Under the pieces are notes generated by a model, which was given only the letters and a program-made list of their open reading frames with translations, made no database searches and was not told the origin of the DNA. The position numbers were made by a program, and so were the translations under genes. A stretch of 39,379 nucleotides of DNA, taken from positions 1-39,379 of the forward strand of contig JAGXFW010000001.1 of NCBI GenBank assembly GCA_024637035.1. The letters are read 5' to 3'. Numbering within the stretch: position 1 is the first letter of the stretch; every line of letters begins with the position of its first letter. The DNA comes from Actinomycetes bacterium (GTDB lineage Bacteria > Actinomycetota > Thermoleophilia > RBG-16-64-13). Positions 31,769 through 39,049 of this stretch are shown here, piece by piece.

Positions 31769-32059
31769 ATGAAGACTACCAAGGTGACCGACGCGGGGCT
31801 GGTGCAGATCCCTGTCTCGATTCGTGATGAGCTTGATTTCGACGCAGGTGGCACGGTGCACGTTCACGCGGAGGATGGGCGTGCCGTCGTGCGGCGCATC
31901 GGCGATTGGGAAAGCATGGCCGGCACCGTCGTGGTGCCACAGAACCTCGCGCAGCGGTCATTGGAAGACCTCCGGGAGGCCGGCAAGAGGTTGTGGGCGG
32001 CGGAGGCTGTGGGGGCCCGGTTGTTCGGACCCTTTCCGGGCCAGGGAGGGGTGCGATGA
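31769..32059 (+). CDS. AbrB/MazE-type antitoxin (VapB-like)
   Basis: The 96-residue protein starts with a SpoVT/AbrB swapped-hairpin domain, 'VTDAGLVQIPVSIRDELDFD' followed by 'AGGTVHVHAEDGRAVVRRI'. A helical tail ('LAQRSLEDLREAGKRLWAAE') that would bind the toxin comes next. The ATG has GGAGGG 6-7 bases upstream. Its TGA overlaps the PIN toxin ATG by 4 bases. The N-terminal domain would bind the operon promoter. The pair is placed between the glycosyltransferase cluster and the acylase gene and looks intact. Confidence 0.85.
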   Translation: MKTTKVTDAGLVQIPVSIRDELDFDAGGTVHVHAEDGRAVVRRIGDWESMAGTVVVPQNLAQRSLEDLREAGKRLWAAEAVGARLFGPFPGQGGVR

Positions 32060-32472
32060 GCCGCAAACTCTTCCTCGACACCGACGTGATCCTGGGCTAT
32101 CTGATAGGCCGCCCTGCCGATCAAGCTGCCCACGCCGGCGAGCTCTTCGAGGCCGCCCGCGACGGTTCGGTATCGCTCTTCGTGAGCGACACCGTGCTGG
32201 TGGAGACCGCGGTGGTCCTGTGGCGCACGCTTGGGATGGAGCGGCGAGAAGTGGCCCATCATCTGGAGGCTCTACTCGAGGCTCCCGGCGTTGAGACGCA
32301 CAACAAAGGGGTATTCGGGCAGGCGCTCGACTTCTTCCAAGAGTACCCGGTGGATCTGGCCGACGCGGTGCTCAGCTCGTATGCGATCGCAGAGGGGGCC
32401 GCGATAGCGAGCCTCGACCCCGTGCTCGATCGGATTCCCGGCGTGGTCCGTGAGGGGCGCCGAGCGAGCTAG
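32056..32472 (+). CDS. PIN-domain ribonuclease toxin (VapC-like)
   Basis: The 138-residue protein has the PIN acidic positions: Asp8 in 'LFLDTDVILGYLIGRPADQA', a Glu in 'VSDTVLVETAVVLWRTLGME', and later acidic residues in 'YPVDLADAVLSSYAIAEGAA' and 'IASLDPVLDRIPGV'. It is likely a metal-dependent RNase held inactive by the upstream AbrB-type antitoxin, with which it forms an ATGA overlap and shares the GGGAGGGG ribosome binding region. Its length and motif spacing are normal. The RNA target is unknown. It ends 32 bases before the convergent acylase gene. Confidence 0.88.
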   Translation: MSRKLFLDTDVILGYLIGRPADQAAHAGELFEAARDGSVSLFVSDTVLVETAVVLWRTLGMERREVAHHLEALLEAPGVETHNKGVFGQALDFFQEYPVDLADAVLSSYAIAEGAAIASLDPVLDRIPGVVREGRRAS

Positions 32473-32504: not shown

Positions 32505-35216
32505 TCACGGGGTGAGCGTGAGCACGTCCCGCGTCGATTCCTCCACGGCCTCCCGACTGAACGCCATGGGGGCCGGTTCTATCTTCTGCCAGCCTCGCAC
32601 CATGTCGTCGTAGTGCCTGTGGAACGCGTGCCCCGATTGCCCGGTGGTGTGCAGGGCGAGAGAAGCGTCGAGGTCGGCCATGTCCACGATCATGCGCATC
32701 GAGGGGAGACTGGTCACCTCGAACGGCGCCTGTGCGCTCCAGTTGGTAGCGTTCACCAGGCTGGTGCTCCCGCTCGCGGGATAGGGCCCGCGGTTGAACA
32801 GCGCTTCCACCAGCGGCACGCCCGACTGGCCCAAGGTCTGATTGTGGAAGGTCACGGTGTGCAGGTCGCCCCAGCGCCAGTCGCCGGGGGTGTCACCGTG
32901 GAGAGTGGTCAGCTCGTCCACGGCTCCGACGAGCGCGCGCACCAGGATGGCGTCACGGTCTTCCACGACATCGGCGGTCTGCGAGTCATCCCACCACGGG
33001 CTGGTTTTGACGTCCACGAGACGGCGCACCACCTCGAACCACTGGCTCCCGCCCTTGGGGGCCATATCGGCGGGCAGATCGTCGGCGAAGGCATCGCGAA
33101 GCAGATGGACCCAGAAGGTCTCGAAGAGCACGGCGGCAGGTGAATCGACGTCCTCGCGAAGATCCCACCCGTCGAGGAGAGCGCGGGCGTCGGTGACCGC
33201 CCCAACCCGGGTGGAGTCGACGCCGGCTGCCTCAAGATCCAGGCCCAGGAGGAGCGGCACCAAGGTGGCGGCGTTCGGGTTGTAGGAGTCGGCCTGCATC
33301 ACGCGCATGTCCTCGACGGTGAGCTTGTCTGGCGCGTCCTCAATGAGGTCGGTGATCCTCTGGGCGCGATAGCCGTAGTGCCAGTCGGTGGTGATGAGCA
33401 CGTCCACGTTGGTGGGAGTGGCCGCTTGTTGGCCGGGGAGCCACGCCCCGGGCACGTTCGAGAACAGCATGCCGTCTCGGATGACCGCGTTGTTGGCGGT
33501 GACGATGTAGTCGCTCGGGGGGTCGAGCACGAAGGGCAGCCGTTGGAAGGGCAGGTAGCCTATCCATTCGTAGTCGTCGGTCCAGCCCGGCACCGGATAG
33601 CGGCCGTCGTGGGTGATGGTGTCCGAGGGGGCGCGTGAACGCACTCTCACGGGTATCTTGCCCGGCATCTGGTAGCCGATGTGGCCATCGACGTCGGCGT
33701 AGATGAGGTTCTGCGACGGCACGTCCCAATCCTGCGCCGCCAGACGGAACTCGGCGAAGCTGCCGGCCAGGTTCATCTTGCGCACCGCCTGCAGGGTGTT
33801 CGAGGACTCCAGGGCGGTCCAGCGGAGCGACAGGGCGTAGTCTTCCGGCACGGGCGCCGCGAGTCCGGACGGCCGGCCGATGTCTTCGAGAGGGCCGAAC
33901 GTGTCGGACACCACTGGTCCGTGACGCGTGTAGCGCACGGTGAGTGTCTCCGCGGCCCCGCCGGCCACGCGGATCTCTTCGCGCACCTTCACCATGTCGA
34001 CCCACTCCCCGTTCACCTCGTACTGATCGGGGTTCTCGGGGTTGATCTTCTCGATATAGAGATCGGCGACGTCGGCGCCGAGATTGGTGAATCCCCACGC
34101 GATCCGACTGTTGTGTCCGATGATCACGCCCGCGGCTCCAGGGAAGGTGAAACCCACTACGTTCAGTCGCGGGCCGCCCGCGGACGCGGCCGGCGTCACT
34201 CCGGGCTCCTCGCCTCCCAGCGCGGGGGGCGCCGTTTCGTGCAACCCCATCTGGTACCAGATCGAGGGGATCTGTTCGGCGAGGTGGGTGTCGTTGGCGA
34301 GCAGCGGCATGCCTGTGGCCGTGCGCTCGCCGCTCACCACCCAACTATTCGACCCTATGCCCTCGCGCAGGGGGATGAGGAGTTCATCGAGTGCGGCCAC
34401 TTTCTGCTGCACCACGAGAGCCGGCCCCGCCATACTCGCGGGCGCCGGCGCGACCGACATGGCACCGGCGGTGCCGGCGTTTCCGTCCGCGGACCGCTCC
34501 GCACTGTCCTCGAGCGGGCTCTCACTCTCGCCCACGATCACTGGGTGGTCCGAGGGGTACGGCGGGAAGAGGTCATCTATCTGGTCGGGCGTGAGTGTAT
34601 TGAGCAGCACGGCGCGCTCGATCTCGCGATCGAGGTTACCGCTGAGGTCCCAGGCCATGACTTTCGCCCAGACCATCGTGTCGAGAGGCTCCCATGGCTC
34701 TGGGACATACGCCCTGTTCGTGAGACCGACCACGGCGTACTCGAGGCTCAGACCGCCTCTCTGCCTCTCGGCGAGGTAGGCGTTCACGCCCGCCGCGTAC
34801 CAGTTGAGCACGTCGGCCGATTCGGCGCCGAGGGCGGCCACCTCCTGTTCGGCCACCCGAGCCCACCCGAGGGTCCGCAGGAAGCGGTCCGTCTCGAGTT
34901 GCGACTCGCCGAACATCTCCGACAGACGCCCGGCGCCGACGTGGCGCCATACGTCCATCTGGTAGAAGCGATCCTGCGCGTGGACGTACCCCTGGGCCAT
35001 GTAGAGGTCGTGCTGGCTCGAGGCGTACACGTGGGGGACGCCGAGTTCGTCGCGGAGTACTTGCACCTCGGCTTCGAGACCGGGCACCTGTACCAGCCCA
35101 TCGACCTGCGGGAAGGAACGTCTGGCCGTGTAGAAGGCGAACACGGCAGCGGCCGCTACGAGGAAGACCAGGACCACCAGAGTCCACGTGAAGATGCGGC
35201 GGATCCTAACCAGCAT
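32505..35216 (-). CDS. Penicillin-acylase-family Ntn hydrolase, membrane-anchored
   Basis: The 903-residue protein has one N-terminal transmembrane segment ('FTWTLVVLVFLVAAAAVFAF') and then an acylase alpha region ('RDELGVPHVYASSQHDLYMA', 'GYVHAQDRFYQMDVWRHVGA', 'GRLSEMFGE'). The precursor cleavage site 'GIGSNSWVVSGERTATGMPL' provides Ser289 as the N-terminal nucleophile of the beta chain. 'AWGFTNLGADVADLYIEKIN' and 'YTRHGPVVSD' are also conserved. An Asp/Glu/Ala-rich linker lies before the cleavage site. The family hydrolyses amide bonds, including those of acyl-homoserine lactones and beta-lactams; the substrate here is unknown. The start at 35216 has a GGGGG site; an ATG at 35231 would add 5 residues. 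Confidence 0.9.
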   Translation of the reverse strand: MLVRIRRIFTWTLVVLVFLVAAAAVFAFYTARRSFPQVDGLVQVPGLEAEVQVLRDELGVPHVYASSQHDLYMAQGYVHAQDRFYQMDVWRHVGAGRLSEMFGESQLETDRFLRTLGWARVAEQEVAALGAESADVLNWYAAGVNAYLAERQRGGLSLEYAVVGLTNRAYVPEPWEPLDTMVWAKVMAWDLSGNLDREIERAVLLNTLTPDQIDDLFPPYPSDHPVIVGESESPLEDSAERSADGNAGTAGAMSVAPAPASMAGPALVVQQKVAALDELLIPLREGIGSNSWVVSGERTATGMPLLANDTHLAEQIPSIWYQMGLHETAPPALGGEEPGVTPAASAGGPRLNVVGFTFPGAAGVIIGHNSRIAWGFTNLGADVADLYIEKINPENPDQYEVNGEWVDMVKVREEIRVAGGAAETLTVRYTRHGPVVSDTFGPLEDIGRPSGLAAPVPEDYALSLRWTALESSNTLQAVRKMNLAGSFAEFRLAAQDWDVPSQNLIYADVDGHIGYQMPGKIPVRVRSRAPSDTITHDGRYPVPGWTDDYEWIGYLPFQRLPFVLDPPSDYIVTANNAVIRDGMLFSNVPGAWLPGQQAATPTNVDVLITTDWHYGYRAQRITDLIEDAPDKLTVEDMRVMQADSYNPNAATLVPLLLGLDLEAAGVDSTRVGAVTDARALLDGWDLREDVDSPAAVLFETFWVHLLRDAFADDLPADMAPKGGSQWFEVVRRLVDVKTSPWWDDSQTADVVEDRDAILVRALVGAVDELTTLHGDTPGDWRWGDLHTVTFHNQTLGQSGVPLVEALFNRGPYPASGSTSLVNATNWSAQAPFEVTSLPSMRMIVDMADLDASLALHTTGQSGHAFHRHYDDMVRGWQKIEPAPMAFSREAVEESTRDVLTLTP

Positions 35217-35522
35217 GGTGCCCCCAGTCATCGTTCGGTCGCTCGCGAGCGCTCGGCCCCTCCCGCGCGCACCGCGCCGCCGGTTCGGGCGTCTACCTTC
35301 CCGATGCTACCGCACGAGACCATGCCAGGTAAACAACACTGCTGCTCCCGGCCGCCGTCCTTGCCGGCCGTGCACTCCGCCCGTCGGCTCGGGAAGACAC
35401 TCAGCCGAAGAACCACCCGAGGTCGTTTCACTATGTTGCTTGCCTCACGTCGCTTTCGTGGCAATCGGCACCGACCCGTTGTAGAGTGACGAACAGGAGC
35501 GTGGAGTCGGGAAGGGGGCATC

Positions 35523-37616
35523 ATGACTGAGAGTGAGGCGGCGGCTGAGCGTGGGAAGCGTGGCGGCGTCCGGGGCGGTGGCTCCGGCCACAAGGGAGAT
35601 CCGCGCGTGAGTGGGACCGGTCCGCGAGGGAGGGGTCTTGCTCAACAGCTCGTCCGGTCGGGGCGCCTGCCGCTCTTGCTCGCCCTCTGCGTGCTGTTCG
35701 CGCTGGTCGGTTGTTCTTTCAGCTTCGGCGATCCGGACAAGACCAGCACGACCACGGCTTCTACGGCCCCCCCTGAGGTCACCACCACGACCAAGGGGGA
35801 GATCACTGCGCGCTCGATCACGCTCCAGGGGTTGTGGGTGTCGCATCGATCCGAAGGGAGCGTCGGCGGGGTCAACGACATGACTGTGAACGTGTCTCCG
35901 GGTACGTCGGGCAATATCGCGGTGGGTGTGATCGAAGGCGAGGTGTTCGGCACAGGGGCCCAGTGGCGCGTGGCCTCCTGGAGCGCTGCGCTGGCGGCGA
36001 GCAATCTGTTGAACGTCGACCTCTCGAAGCTCAAGATCAGCTACGAGGTGGCCGGGCGCATCGATGGTCCGAGCGCCGGTTGTTTGATGACGGTGGGCAC
36101 GTTGGCGGGCATGCTGGGTGATGACGTGCGGGAAGACGTCACGATGACCGGCACCATCAATCCGGACTACACCGTCGGGCCGGTGGGAGGTATCCCCCAC
36201 AAGCTCGAAGGTGCCGCGGCGGCGGGCAAGAAGATCGTGCTCGTGCCAGCGGGACAGCGCATGGACTACGACGACAATTTGCAGGAATGGGTGGACGTGG
36301 TGCGAGTCGGAGCCGATCTTGGGTTGGAGGTGATCGAAGTCGGCGACGTGTTCGAAGCATACGAGCACTTCACCGATCGCAGTTTGCCCGAGCCTCGCGT
36401 CTCCGCGCGCGCACCGGAGCTATCGCCGGCGGCGCACGATGTGCTGCTCGAACAGGCGTCGTCGTGGATCGACTACTGCAACACGAATCTGGACGACTAC
36501 GATGCCCTCCCCGATACGGCGAAGAGCGACTACGAGGAAGGACGCGTGGAGTACTCGCTCGAAGCCCTCGGCAACGCCGACAAGTACGCGAGCCAGGGAT
36601 TGGCCGCCGCGGCCCTCTATTCAGCCATCGATGCGGCACGCCAGGCACTCCTGGCTGTGAACTACGCCGAGGTGGAGCAGTTCATACAGGACAACGGCGA
36701 GCAAGCGGCCGTGGAGGAGTTGGCCTACCTCGGGATCAGCGATTCCATAGACGGACTCGCCGACGAGCTGCTGGCCGTGGAGCCGGTGAACGTGAGCGAG
36801 GCAGTGGCCTTGGTGGAGGCGTGGGGCTACTGGACGGTCGCAGGACGCCTCTCGTATGAGGCCGACGACAGACTCGCCGGCGTTCCCGACGATCCGGGCG
36901 AGGTGGAGGGACGCCTGGGCGCCATCTACGACGCGGTGTGGAACTACACACTGGCGATGATCGCACGCGATTCCGCATACGACGCCCTCGCCTTGGGCCA
37001 GGTGCTCAAGGGGGAGCCCATCAAGGGAGCCGAGCGTCTGGGCGAGCTCGCCGAGGTCTACCGCCGAGTGGCCGAGGCCAACCTCGACACCGTGCACGTG
37101 CTCGTGGTGCCCGGCATGGCCTCCGATTGGGGGGTTTCGGAGGCCGAGGCCTACGACACGCTGATCACCTCCGACCAGAACCTGGCTGAAGCGGAAGCCG
37201 CGGTCGGCGACCAACAGTACCTTCTCGAGTACCTCGACCCAGGGCCCACCCGTGACTACGCCGTGCTCGGCGCGGCTCTCGTAGGGTACGCCGGCAGCGC
37301 TGCGGCGATAGCCGAGCACTACTCGTATGGCGCCGTCTACGACGAAGAGGGGATCATCACCGGCTACGATATGGACAAGGCACTGCACGGTGCGCTCGAC
37401 TTCGCGAGGACGCGAGGAGAGAAGCTGATCTCGGCGGCATCCGGCGGGCGATCGGACACGGCGCTGCCTGTGATGTACTACGAGGCCGCGAGTATCGCGC
37501 GCGAAGGCTACCCCGGAGAGAAGATCGACGCGCTCTACGGCTACTGGACCGCGGCGATGTACGCCCAGATCATGGCCGCTCTGAGTGGGGATCTAGAACC
37601 CCTGGCGCCGCGCTGA
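35523..37616 (+). CDS. Lon-like (S16) protease domain in a predicted lipoprotein
   Basis: The 697-residue product has a basic, Gly-rich N-terminus, a hydrophobic segment 'LPLLLALCVLFALVGC' ending in a lipobox (LVGC, Cys64), and a Thr-rich linker. A Lon proteolytic fold occupies about residues 95-275. The nucleophile is Ser184 in 'RIDGPSAGCLMTVGTLAG', followed by 'VTMTGTINPDYTVGPVGGIP', and the base is Lys227 in 'GGIPHKLEGAAAAG'. The 43-residue Ser-Lys distance equals that of E. coli Lon (Ser679, Lys722). There is no AAA+ ATPase. The remaining 400 residues are helical and unrecognised. An alternative GTG at 35607 would shorten the N-terminus to a standard lipoprotein signal. Targets are unknown. 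Confidence 0.85.
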   Translation: MTESEAAAERGKRGGVRGGGSGHKGDPRVSGTGPRGRGLAQQLVRSGRLPLLLALCVLFALVGCSFSFGDPDKTSTTTASTAPPEVTTTTKGEITARSITLQGLWVSHRSEGSVGGVNDMTVNVSPGTSGNIAVGVIEGEVFGTGAQWRVASWSAALAASNLLNVDLSKLKISYEVAGRIDGPSAGCLMTVGTLAGMLGDDVREDVTMTGTINPDYTVGPVGGIPHKLEGAAAAGKKIVLVPAGQRMDYDDNLQEWVDVVRVGADLGLEVIEVGDVFEAYEHFTDRSLPEPRVSARAPELSPAAHDVLLEQASSWIDYCNTNLDDYDALPDTAKSDYEEGRVEYSLEALGNADKYASQGLAAAALYSAIDAARQALLAVNYAEVEQFIQDNGEQAAVEELAYLGISDSIDGLADELLAVEPVNVSEAVALVEAWGYWTVAGRLSYEADDRLAGVPDDPGEVEGRLGAIYDAVWNYTLAMIARDSAYDALALGQVLKGEPIKGAERLGELAEVYRRVAEANLDTVHVLVVPGMASDWGVSEAEAYDTLITSDQNLAEAEAAVGDQQYLLEYLDPGPTRDYAVLGAALVGYAGSAAAIAEHYSYGAVYDEEGIITGYDMDKALHGALDFARTRGEKLISAASGGRSDTALPVMYYEAASIAREGYPGEKIDALYGYWTAAMYAQIMAALSGDLEPLAPR

Positions 37617-37625
37617 ACTGACGAA

Positions 37626-37653
37626 GGCCGGGGGCGCCTTCGCGCCCCCGGCC
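37626..37653. terminator. Hairpin terminator between convergent genes
   Basis: GGCCGGGGGCGC (37626-37637) is fully complementary to GCGCCCCCGGCC (37642-37653), with a 4-base loop CTTC. It lies 10 bases after the Lon-like gene stop and 50 bases beyond the SPFH gene stop on the other strand. There is no T run on either side. It may serve both transcripts. Confidence 0.65.
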
Positions 37654-37703
37654 TCCAGACTTCGCATCCCCGAGCTCAAGAAGCCTCGGGTAGCTGCTCG
37701 GGA

Positions 37704-38747
37704 CTACTGCCCAGCGGCTCCGCGCACGTCGATGAGTGGAATGATCGAGTCGGGCAGCACGCCCCACTCGATGTTCGGCGCCATCTTCTGCACGAACTCG
37801 TACTGGATCACCAGCGGGTTCTGCGCCAGCGCTTCTTGCTTGAGTCGGATCGCCTCGGCCTCGCCGGCCGCTTCGATCTTCTTCTTCTCGGCCTCGCCCT
37901 CAGCGTTGATGATCGTCTGCTTCTTGATGGCTTCCTGCCGGGCGATGTTGTTCTCTTCGGTGAGGGCGTTCTGCTTGGCGATCTGTTTGGCCTCGACCGC
38001 CACGACGTAGTCGGGGGCGAAGCTGATACGTCGCACGAGGTACTGGTCGATGATCACGCCGTGCGCCATGAACGATTCCTCGAGGCGGGCCTGGATCACG
38101 TCCTGCGCTTCCGCTTGGCCCTTCTGGGTGTAGAGCGCCTCCGCCGAGAAGCCCTTCGGAACCTCGCGGCTCACCGAGCGTGCGAATGCTTTGATCACGT
38201 TCTCGACCACCGCCCCCATGTCGCCCACCTCTTGCGCGACCGAAGCGGCGCCCTCAGAGGGGATGCGGAAGAGCACGGTGAAGGTGAGCTGCACCGTCTG
38301 GCCGTCGCTCGTGGTGCTGTCGACGACGTAATCGGTGTAGTTCGCCTGTGAGGTTTCCGGATTCTCAGACGCTTCGTAGCTGGTGACCTTGGTCGAGTAG
38401 ACCACGACTTCGTCGAGGAACGGGAACTTGAAATGGAAGCCCGGCTCGAAGACGGTGTTCTGCACTGCGCCCAGCCGTTTGACGACGCCTACGGTACCCG
38501 CCTCCACCTGAGTGAAGGAGCTGATCACCGATACGATCGCCAGCAGTGCGATGCCCACCGCCCATCCGACCGCCCAAGGACCCCACGCGCGGACCCCGCC
38601 GCCCTTCTCCGGGGCGCCCGCCGTCTCGGGCTGTCCCTCGCCCTTTCGCAGCATCTTCTCTCCGACGGCTGCTCCCTTGAGGACGGCGGCCACCCCCAAC
38701 GGAACCACGATGAGCGTAAGGATGAGTGTTGTTATCAGCGTTCCCAT
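37704..38747 (-). CDS. SPFH/prohibitin-like (band 7) membrane protein
   Basis: The 347-residue protein has a short hydrophobic N-terminus, a Pro/Gly linker, and a second transmembrane segment ('VGWAVGIALLAIVSVISSFT'). The SPFH domain follows directly ('VEAGTVGVVKRLGAVQNTVF', 'EPGFHFKFPFLDEVVVYSTK'). After it comes a long Ala/Glu/Lys coiled coil ('AIKKQTIINAEGEAEKKKIE', then 'AAGEAEAIRLKQEALAQNPL'). This matches prohibitin/HflK-type scaffolds, which form large membrane rings and can control proteases. I chose the second Met because GGAGG lies 4 bases before it; the first would add 4 residues. It is convergent with the Lon-like gene. Confidence 0.92.
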   Translation of the reverse strand: MGTLITTLILTLIVVPLGVAAVLKGAAVGEKMLRKGEGQPETAGAPEKGGGVRAWGPWAVGWAVGIALLAIVSVISSFTQVEAGTVGVVKRLGAVQNTVFEPGFHFKFPFLDEVVVYSTKVTSYEASENPETSQANYTDYVVDSTTSDGQTVQLTFTVLFRIPSEGAASVAQEVGDMGAVVENVIKAFARSVSREVPKGFSAEALYTQKGQAEAQDVIQARLEESFMAHGVIIDQYLVRRISFAPDYVVAVEAKQIAKQNALTEENNIARQEAIKKQTIINAEGEAEKKKIEAAGEAEAIRLKQEALAQNPLVIQYEFVQKMAPNIEWGVLPDSIIPLIDVRGAAGQ

Positions 38748-39049
38748 TCCGCCTCCCATAGGTCGATGGGCGCCCTGCGCGCCCCTCGAGTATCAATCCG
38801 GTGCCGACACCATCGCGGGCGCGTCTACCTGCGGTGCCCCGCCCGCAACCATCTTAGGGGTCGGAAGGTGGGAGGGCAACGCTCAAGTTCGGCGAACATC
38901 ACTGAAGGAGGGCCGGCCTGTCATCTGCCGTCGAGTCCTCGAGGAGGGCCTCAGGTCTCTCGGTGCTTGTTTGGCAACCTCCACCGGGGGAATCAAGTTC
39001 AGCGGAAGGGGCGCTTCGCGTCTGTCGAGAGCTGCAGAAGGGAGGGACC
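38748..39049. other. Intergenic region between SPFH gene and zinc-ribbon gene
   Basis: About 300 bases separate two divergent genes and should contain both promoters, but I see no pair of boxes I can support. A perfect 10-base palindrome TCCTCGAGGA lies near 38935-38944. No RNA gene or convincing ORF was recognised. Confidence 0.4.

Follow-up and report, generated by a model that had tools for sequence, protein, structure and literature searches.

A predicted extracytoplasmic Lon-like lipoprotein with no ATPase module and a conserved helical C-terminal domain

How might a Lon protease domain operate on a protein that carries a lipobox and no ATPase module? This question is raised by a gene lying near the end of the window (i.e. 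the whole stretch of 39,379 nucleotides analysed here, from an actinomycete of the class Thermoleophilia). The features of this gene and of its product are the following:

35523..37616, + strand: gene of the Lon-like lipoprotein, 697 aa (ORF from ATG, 697 codons)
35607..35609, + strand: possible alternative in-frame GTG start at residue 29, with AAGGGAG upstream
35658..35714, + strand: predicted lipoprotein signal, residues 46-64, with lipobox LVGC and Cys64 at 35712-35714 (read from the sequence)
35715..35810, + strand: Thr/Pro/Ser-rich linker, residues 65-96, 32 residues (read from the sequence)
35811..36392, + strand: Lon S16 proteolytic domain, residues 97-290 (AlphaFold model, VIA Z 22.3 to 8dvh, Pfam Lon_C)
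36072..36074, + strand: catalytic Ser184 (motif position, family alignment, alignment to human Lon)
36201..36203, + strand: catalytic Lys227 (motif position, family alignment, alignment to human Lon)
36426..37586, + strand: helical domain, residues 302-688 (AlphaFold models; no relative found among solved structures)
36879..36908, + strand: loop, residues 453-462, inside the stretch 445-462 where three relatives hold an inserted PDZ domain (Pfam matches, site mapping)

The initial annotation of this locus had recognised a Lon fold with Ser184 in a GPSAG motif (residues 182-186) and Lys227 at the Lon spacing, i.e. 43 residues further on. Both residues were borne out by a HMMER alignment to human Lon, in which the Ser, within DGPSAGC, and the Lys fall in register. 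The Pfam model Lon_C matches residues 181-251 (E 6e-10, 39.4 bits for a curated cut-off of 21.1), and beyond it no Pfam match was obtained anywhere in the 697-aa protein. An AlphaFold2 model computed with 65 family members covers residues 97-697 with a mean pLDDT of 94.4 and a pTM of 0.94; its Lon domain (the first 194 residues of this segment) was matched by VIA to B. subtilis LonBA (8dvh; Z 22.3, rmsd 2.1, 170 residues) and to E. coli Lon (1rr9; Z 22.1). A Lon_C score above the cut-off, a Ser-Lys dyad at the Lon spacing and a Lon fold in the predicted model together assign the domain to the Lon S16 family. Outside the protease part, neither Pfam nor NCBIfam gave any match to an AAA+ module, so that the in-chain AAA+ module of ATP-dependent Lon (LonA/B/C) was not found.

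Residues 49-64 read as a hydrophobic stretch with LVGC and its Cys64 at the end, in agreement with the lipobox predicted earlier. The source genome encodes Lgt and LspA, and with this machinery and a lipobox following a hydrophobic segment the protein classifies as a bacterial lipoprotein; the likeliest course is therefore export followed by lipidation at Cys64, with the 32-residue Thr-rich linker as tether. Lipobox, Lon fold and lack of an AAA match all support the extracytoplasmic, ATPase-free Lon-like lipoprotein that had been proposed, its location being predicted. With the ATG at 35523 as start, the n-region ahead of the signal is unusually long; the GTG at 35607 would give a shorter n-region, more usual for a signal peptide, and we are unsure which of the two is the true start. 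The genome holds one copy of the gene, and its other Lon_C matches include true Lon genes and RadA.

Genome scans recovered about 70 full-length relatives of the two-domain protein in several bacterial phyla: Chloroflexota, Actinomycetota (including Acidimicrobiia and Thermoleophilia), Planctomycetota, Myxococcota, and Desulfovibrio-like, other proteobacterial and Armatimonadota MAGs. Members are seldom met: in the phylum of the window 8 genomes out of 296 have one, and in Chloroflexota 3 out of 201. No relative was found on the plasmids searched. Both domains are conserved together across many phyla, down to about 22 % identity, and the family profile spans them over their whole length in almost every relative. 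In the three positive genomes among the 201 Chloroflexota sampled, the helical domain was found each time behind a GPSAG Lon-like domain only, which argues that the two parts form one unit.

Within the protein, conservation is highest at the Ser-Lys-Asp residues and in the GPSAG and TGTINPDGT motifs. In the family alignment Lys227 and Asp181 are kept in all 65 relatives and Ser184 in 64 of them, and a Lon_C match at E up to 0.1 was likewise obtained in 64 of the 65. Comparison with the copy of the same genus (codons 97-697; dS 0.58, dN 0.070) shows that these codons are under purifying selection. A lipobox follows a hydrophobic segment in about three quarters of the matched ORFs (60 of 80), and another 17 of the 80, chiefly from Planctomycetota with a few other lineages, have a hydrophobic N-terminal segment. 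When a conserved partner gene was sought among the neighbours of 74 family loci, none was found.

The long C-terminal part (about 400 residues), initially described as helical and unassignable, gave no Pfam or NCBIfam match, and both points held. Structure prediction followed by a fold search, as had been proposed for this part, was run on residues 295-697 and yielded a confident model with no significant PDB match. Modelled alone, the segment is compact (pLDDT 95.1, pTM 0.94) and consists entirely of helices except for one small hairpin. Foldseek returned 156 matches against the PDB, none with E below 0.001 (the best, talin R7R8, at 0.34), and VIA-align gave partial bundle matches only, the best with Z 9.5 over 107 residues. 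Bundle matches up to this Z were discounted as lying within the range that helical bundles reach by chance; the likeness to vinculin, talin and PhoU was weak only, and a profile search of solved chains proposed AF_1782 (E 0.013) over a short helical stretch, its remaining rows being weaker. As modelled, the helical domain thus appears to have no relative among the solved structures searched, a result that does not in itself prove a new fold.

Three relatives (L073, L075 and L077) have a PDZ domain within their helical part, inserted at a site that maps to residues 445-462 of the window protein, a loop between two long helices. Pfam detects no PDZ domain in the window protein itself, so the contrast drawn at first with secreted Lon-like proteins that bear PDZ domains holds for this protein and fails for some members of its family. 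These insertions connect the family with YlbL and SepM, in which Lon and PDZ domains are likewise combined, though the domain make-up differs. They suggest that the helical domain may lie on the substrate route, and they fit a helical part that handles substrates.

Among known systems, the tested precedent is B. subtilis YlbL, an ATPase-free TM-Lon-PDZ protease located outside the membrane; its function requires the catalytic Ser, and it acts against membrane-bound YneA (PMC6051672). No in vitro activity was observed for purified YlbL (PMC6051672), and the analogy with it therefore rests on genetics. The window protein shares with YlbL/DdcP (Bacillus) and SepM (Streptococcus) a Lon S16 domain, the Ser-Lys dyad, the lack of AAA+ and a place outside the cytoplasmic membrane, predicted in its own case; these proteins, however, have a TM anchor and a PDZ domain, whereas it has a lipobox, a 390-residue helical domain and no PDZ. 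The NCBIfam SepM model accordingly scores it at 32.9 bits, below the cut-off of 200. With Lon A, B and C (E. coli Lon, BsLonBA 8dvh) it has in common the proteolytic fold and a dyad at the same spacing, but it is without their AAA+ module and is predicted to be exported. An exported Lon-like protease without ATPase is also represented by COG1750, a putative extracellular archaeal serine protease. Searching the literature for a described family of such two-domain proteins brought up only YlbL and SepM.

The reading that we favour, with a probability of roughly 0.7, is that of an ATP-independent protease acting through Ser184 and Lys227, which would leave the cytoplasm, receive a lipid at Cys64 and stay attached to the outer face of the cytoplasmic membrane through a flexible Thr-rich linker, possibly as an oligomer. 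The helical domain (about 390 residues) would most likely bind substrates or gate the active site, in place of a PDZ domain. Without ATP, folded substrates are not processively unfolded in the manner of Lon, so that the enzyme would be expected to make limited cuts in exposed, unfolded or membrane-anchored segments of exported or envelope proteins, as YlbL/DdcP and SepM do by means of their PDZ domain.

One relative counts against proteolysis. In the member carried by G007 (L006:1489-3507, G007:C32), which belongs to the same taxonomic family as the window and sits on a long branch, Ser184 is replaced by Ala with the Lys kept. Judging from these residues it is probably a pseudoprotease, and a non-proteolytic role in at least one lineage is possible. 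The initial annotation had named loss of the catalytic pair among close relatives as grounds for refutation; it was seen in this relative only and there in the Ser only. If the protein were mainly a binding or scaffolding lipoprotein, its Lon fold being a structural relic, both this substitution and the presence of RadA (a protein whose Lon-fold domain has no protease activity) among the structural matches of the Lon domain would be accounted for; the conservation of Ser-Lys-Asp, GPSAG and TGTINPDGT above the rest of the protein, with the Ser present in all relatives but one, nevertheless makes this very improbable. A nutritional or surface exoprotease, degrading environmental protein alongside others in organisms that secrete many proteases, would suit the abundance of subtilase/SLH proteins in the same family of genomes, as well as the secreted subtilase with an SLH domain that occupies the equivalent slot in G008. 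However, the lipid tether, the single copy, the rare and patchy distribution and the lack of a pro-region or secretion partner would better suit a cell-surface processing enzyme, and we consider an exoprotease improbable.

The remaining alternatives involve the neighbour of the Lon-like gene, described by two further features:

37625..37654, no strand assigned: perfect 13-bp hairpin between the convergent genes, probably a shared terminator (read from the sequence)
37704..38759, - strand: SPFH/Band_7 gene, convergent neighbour of the Lon-like gene (Band_7 E 2.5e-28), at most a possible member of the system

The SPFH gene reported next to the protease gene is thus indeed present and convergent. 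Protease and SPFH protein might form an extracytoplasmic assembly, in which an SPFH dome would enclose or regulate the lipid-anchored protease as HflKC does with FtsH; there, too, an SPFH protein is found beside a membrane protease, but FtsH is an AAA+ metalloprotease, whereas the window protein has no ATPase and its SPFH linkage is not conserved. The SPFH protein has two hydrophobic N-terminal segments with a K/R-rich loop between them, a pattern which, by the positive-inside rule, would place its SPFH domain outside the membrane, on the same side as the protease. Such an assembly would also agree with the convergent adjacency of the two genes in three genomes (G000, G006 and G009; two genera, one family) and with their frequent co-occurrence: of the 18 genomes of the taxonomic family four have both genes, G008 (64 % complete) has only SPFH and G001 only the protease, although genome relatedness may lie behind this. 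Finally, a natural fusion was found in L074, a Desulfovibrio-like MAG, where a C-terminal extension of about 90-110 residues matches the middle of Band_7 (residues 667-757, E 6e-8); the next gene is convergent and there is no sign of a frameshift. This match nevertheless covers about half of the profile (positions 51-142 of 176), L079, the closest relative of L074 in the tree, has no such extension, and no further SPFH fusion turned up in 246 other genomes of the class.

The wider survey of loci argues against the assembly. Eighty family loci, many of them with flanks of 7-8 kb, and six more were searched with the Band_7 model. Apart from the L074 fusion, an SPFH gene adjoining the protease was found in the window's own genus and in G009, which belongs to a sister genus in the same family; at no other of the 80 loci was an SPFH neighbour detected. 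Since the two genes are convergent, with the hairpin between them, they share no operon. In G009 the gene row is glycosyltransferase, protease, SPFH, zinc-ribbon, and G007 has the same glycosyltransferase-SPFH-zinc-ribbon row with the protease absent from it, so that general synteny can account for the adjacency. The functional link suggested initially thus finds no support in conserved linkage. One fusion and three adjacencies keep an SPFH connection as a minor possibility, without support for it as a feature of the family at large; we regard the enclosing assembly as unlikely, and more doubtful still that an ATP-free Lon-like lipoprotein with a new helical fold for substrate capture is caged or recruited by an extramembrane SPFH scaffold in some lineages.

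Other observations were made around these loci. In G008 (L159:1371-3251, G008:C18) the subtilase with the SLH domain, unrelated to the Lon-like protein, lies beside the SPFH gene, in the position that the protease takes in G009; it was dropped as a hint of a protease-SPFH theme, subtilases being so common in these genomes that its position may be due to chance. In the window, a penicillin-amidase family gene (32505-35231, - strand) diverges from the Lon-like gene and is followed by a PIN-domain gene (31906-32472, + strand); G006 shares both, but neither was found in the blocks of G009 and G007.

The ATP-independent, lipid-anchored protease that we favour would represent a well-conserved and apparently undescribed architecture of extracytoplasmic Lon-like proteases. 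Those found in the literature are PDZ proteins of Firmicutes (YlbL, SepM), and the family brings another architecture to several phyla. Many of the phyla concerned are uncultivated, and the helical domain, conserved as it is, has no counterpart found among solved structures. The family thereby offers a test of a Lon protease domain working without ATP. Named strains with a member are Botrimarina colliarenosi Pla108 and Bythopirellula polymerisocia Pla144, the latter with its Lon-like and helical parts in two overlapping reading frames (L072:7830-9742), through either a natural split or a frameshift.

Several members depart from the common arrangement. Three Thermoleophilia loci (L089:5968-9776, L093:5864-8979 and L097:5954-9782) hold two diverged family copies as a head-to-head divergent gene pair, and G105 likewise has two copies. 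The Chloroflexota members (L033, L035, L037, L040, L041, L042, L045, L047 and L083) bear at the N-terminus an additional stretch of some 120-150 residues, for which the two tested gave no Pfam match, and several of them have just upstream a large gene that we read as resembling a SARP-type regulator. Lastly, two contigs labelled Bifidobacterium breve (L057 and L103) carry a family member; L103 is nearly identical to a contig of an uncultured actinobacterium (L104), and its species label is probably wrong.
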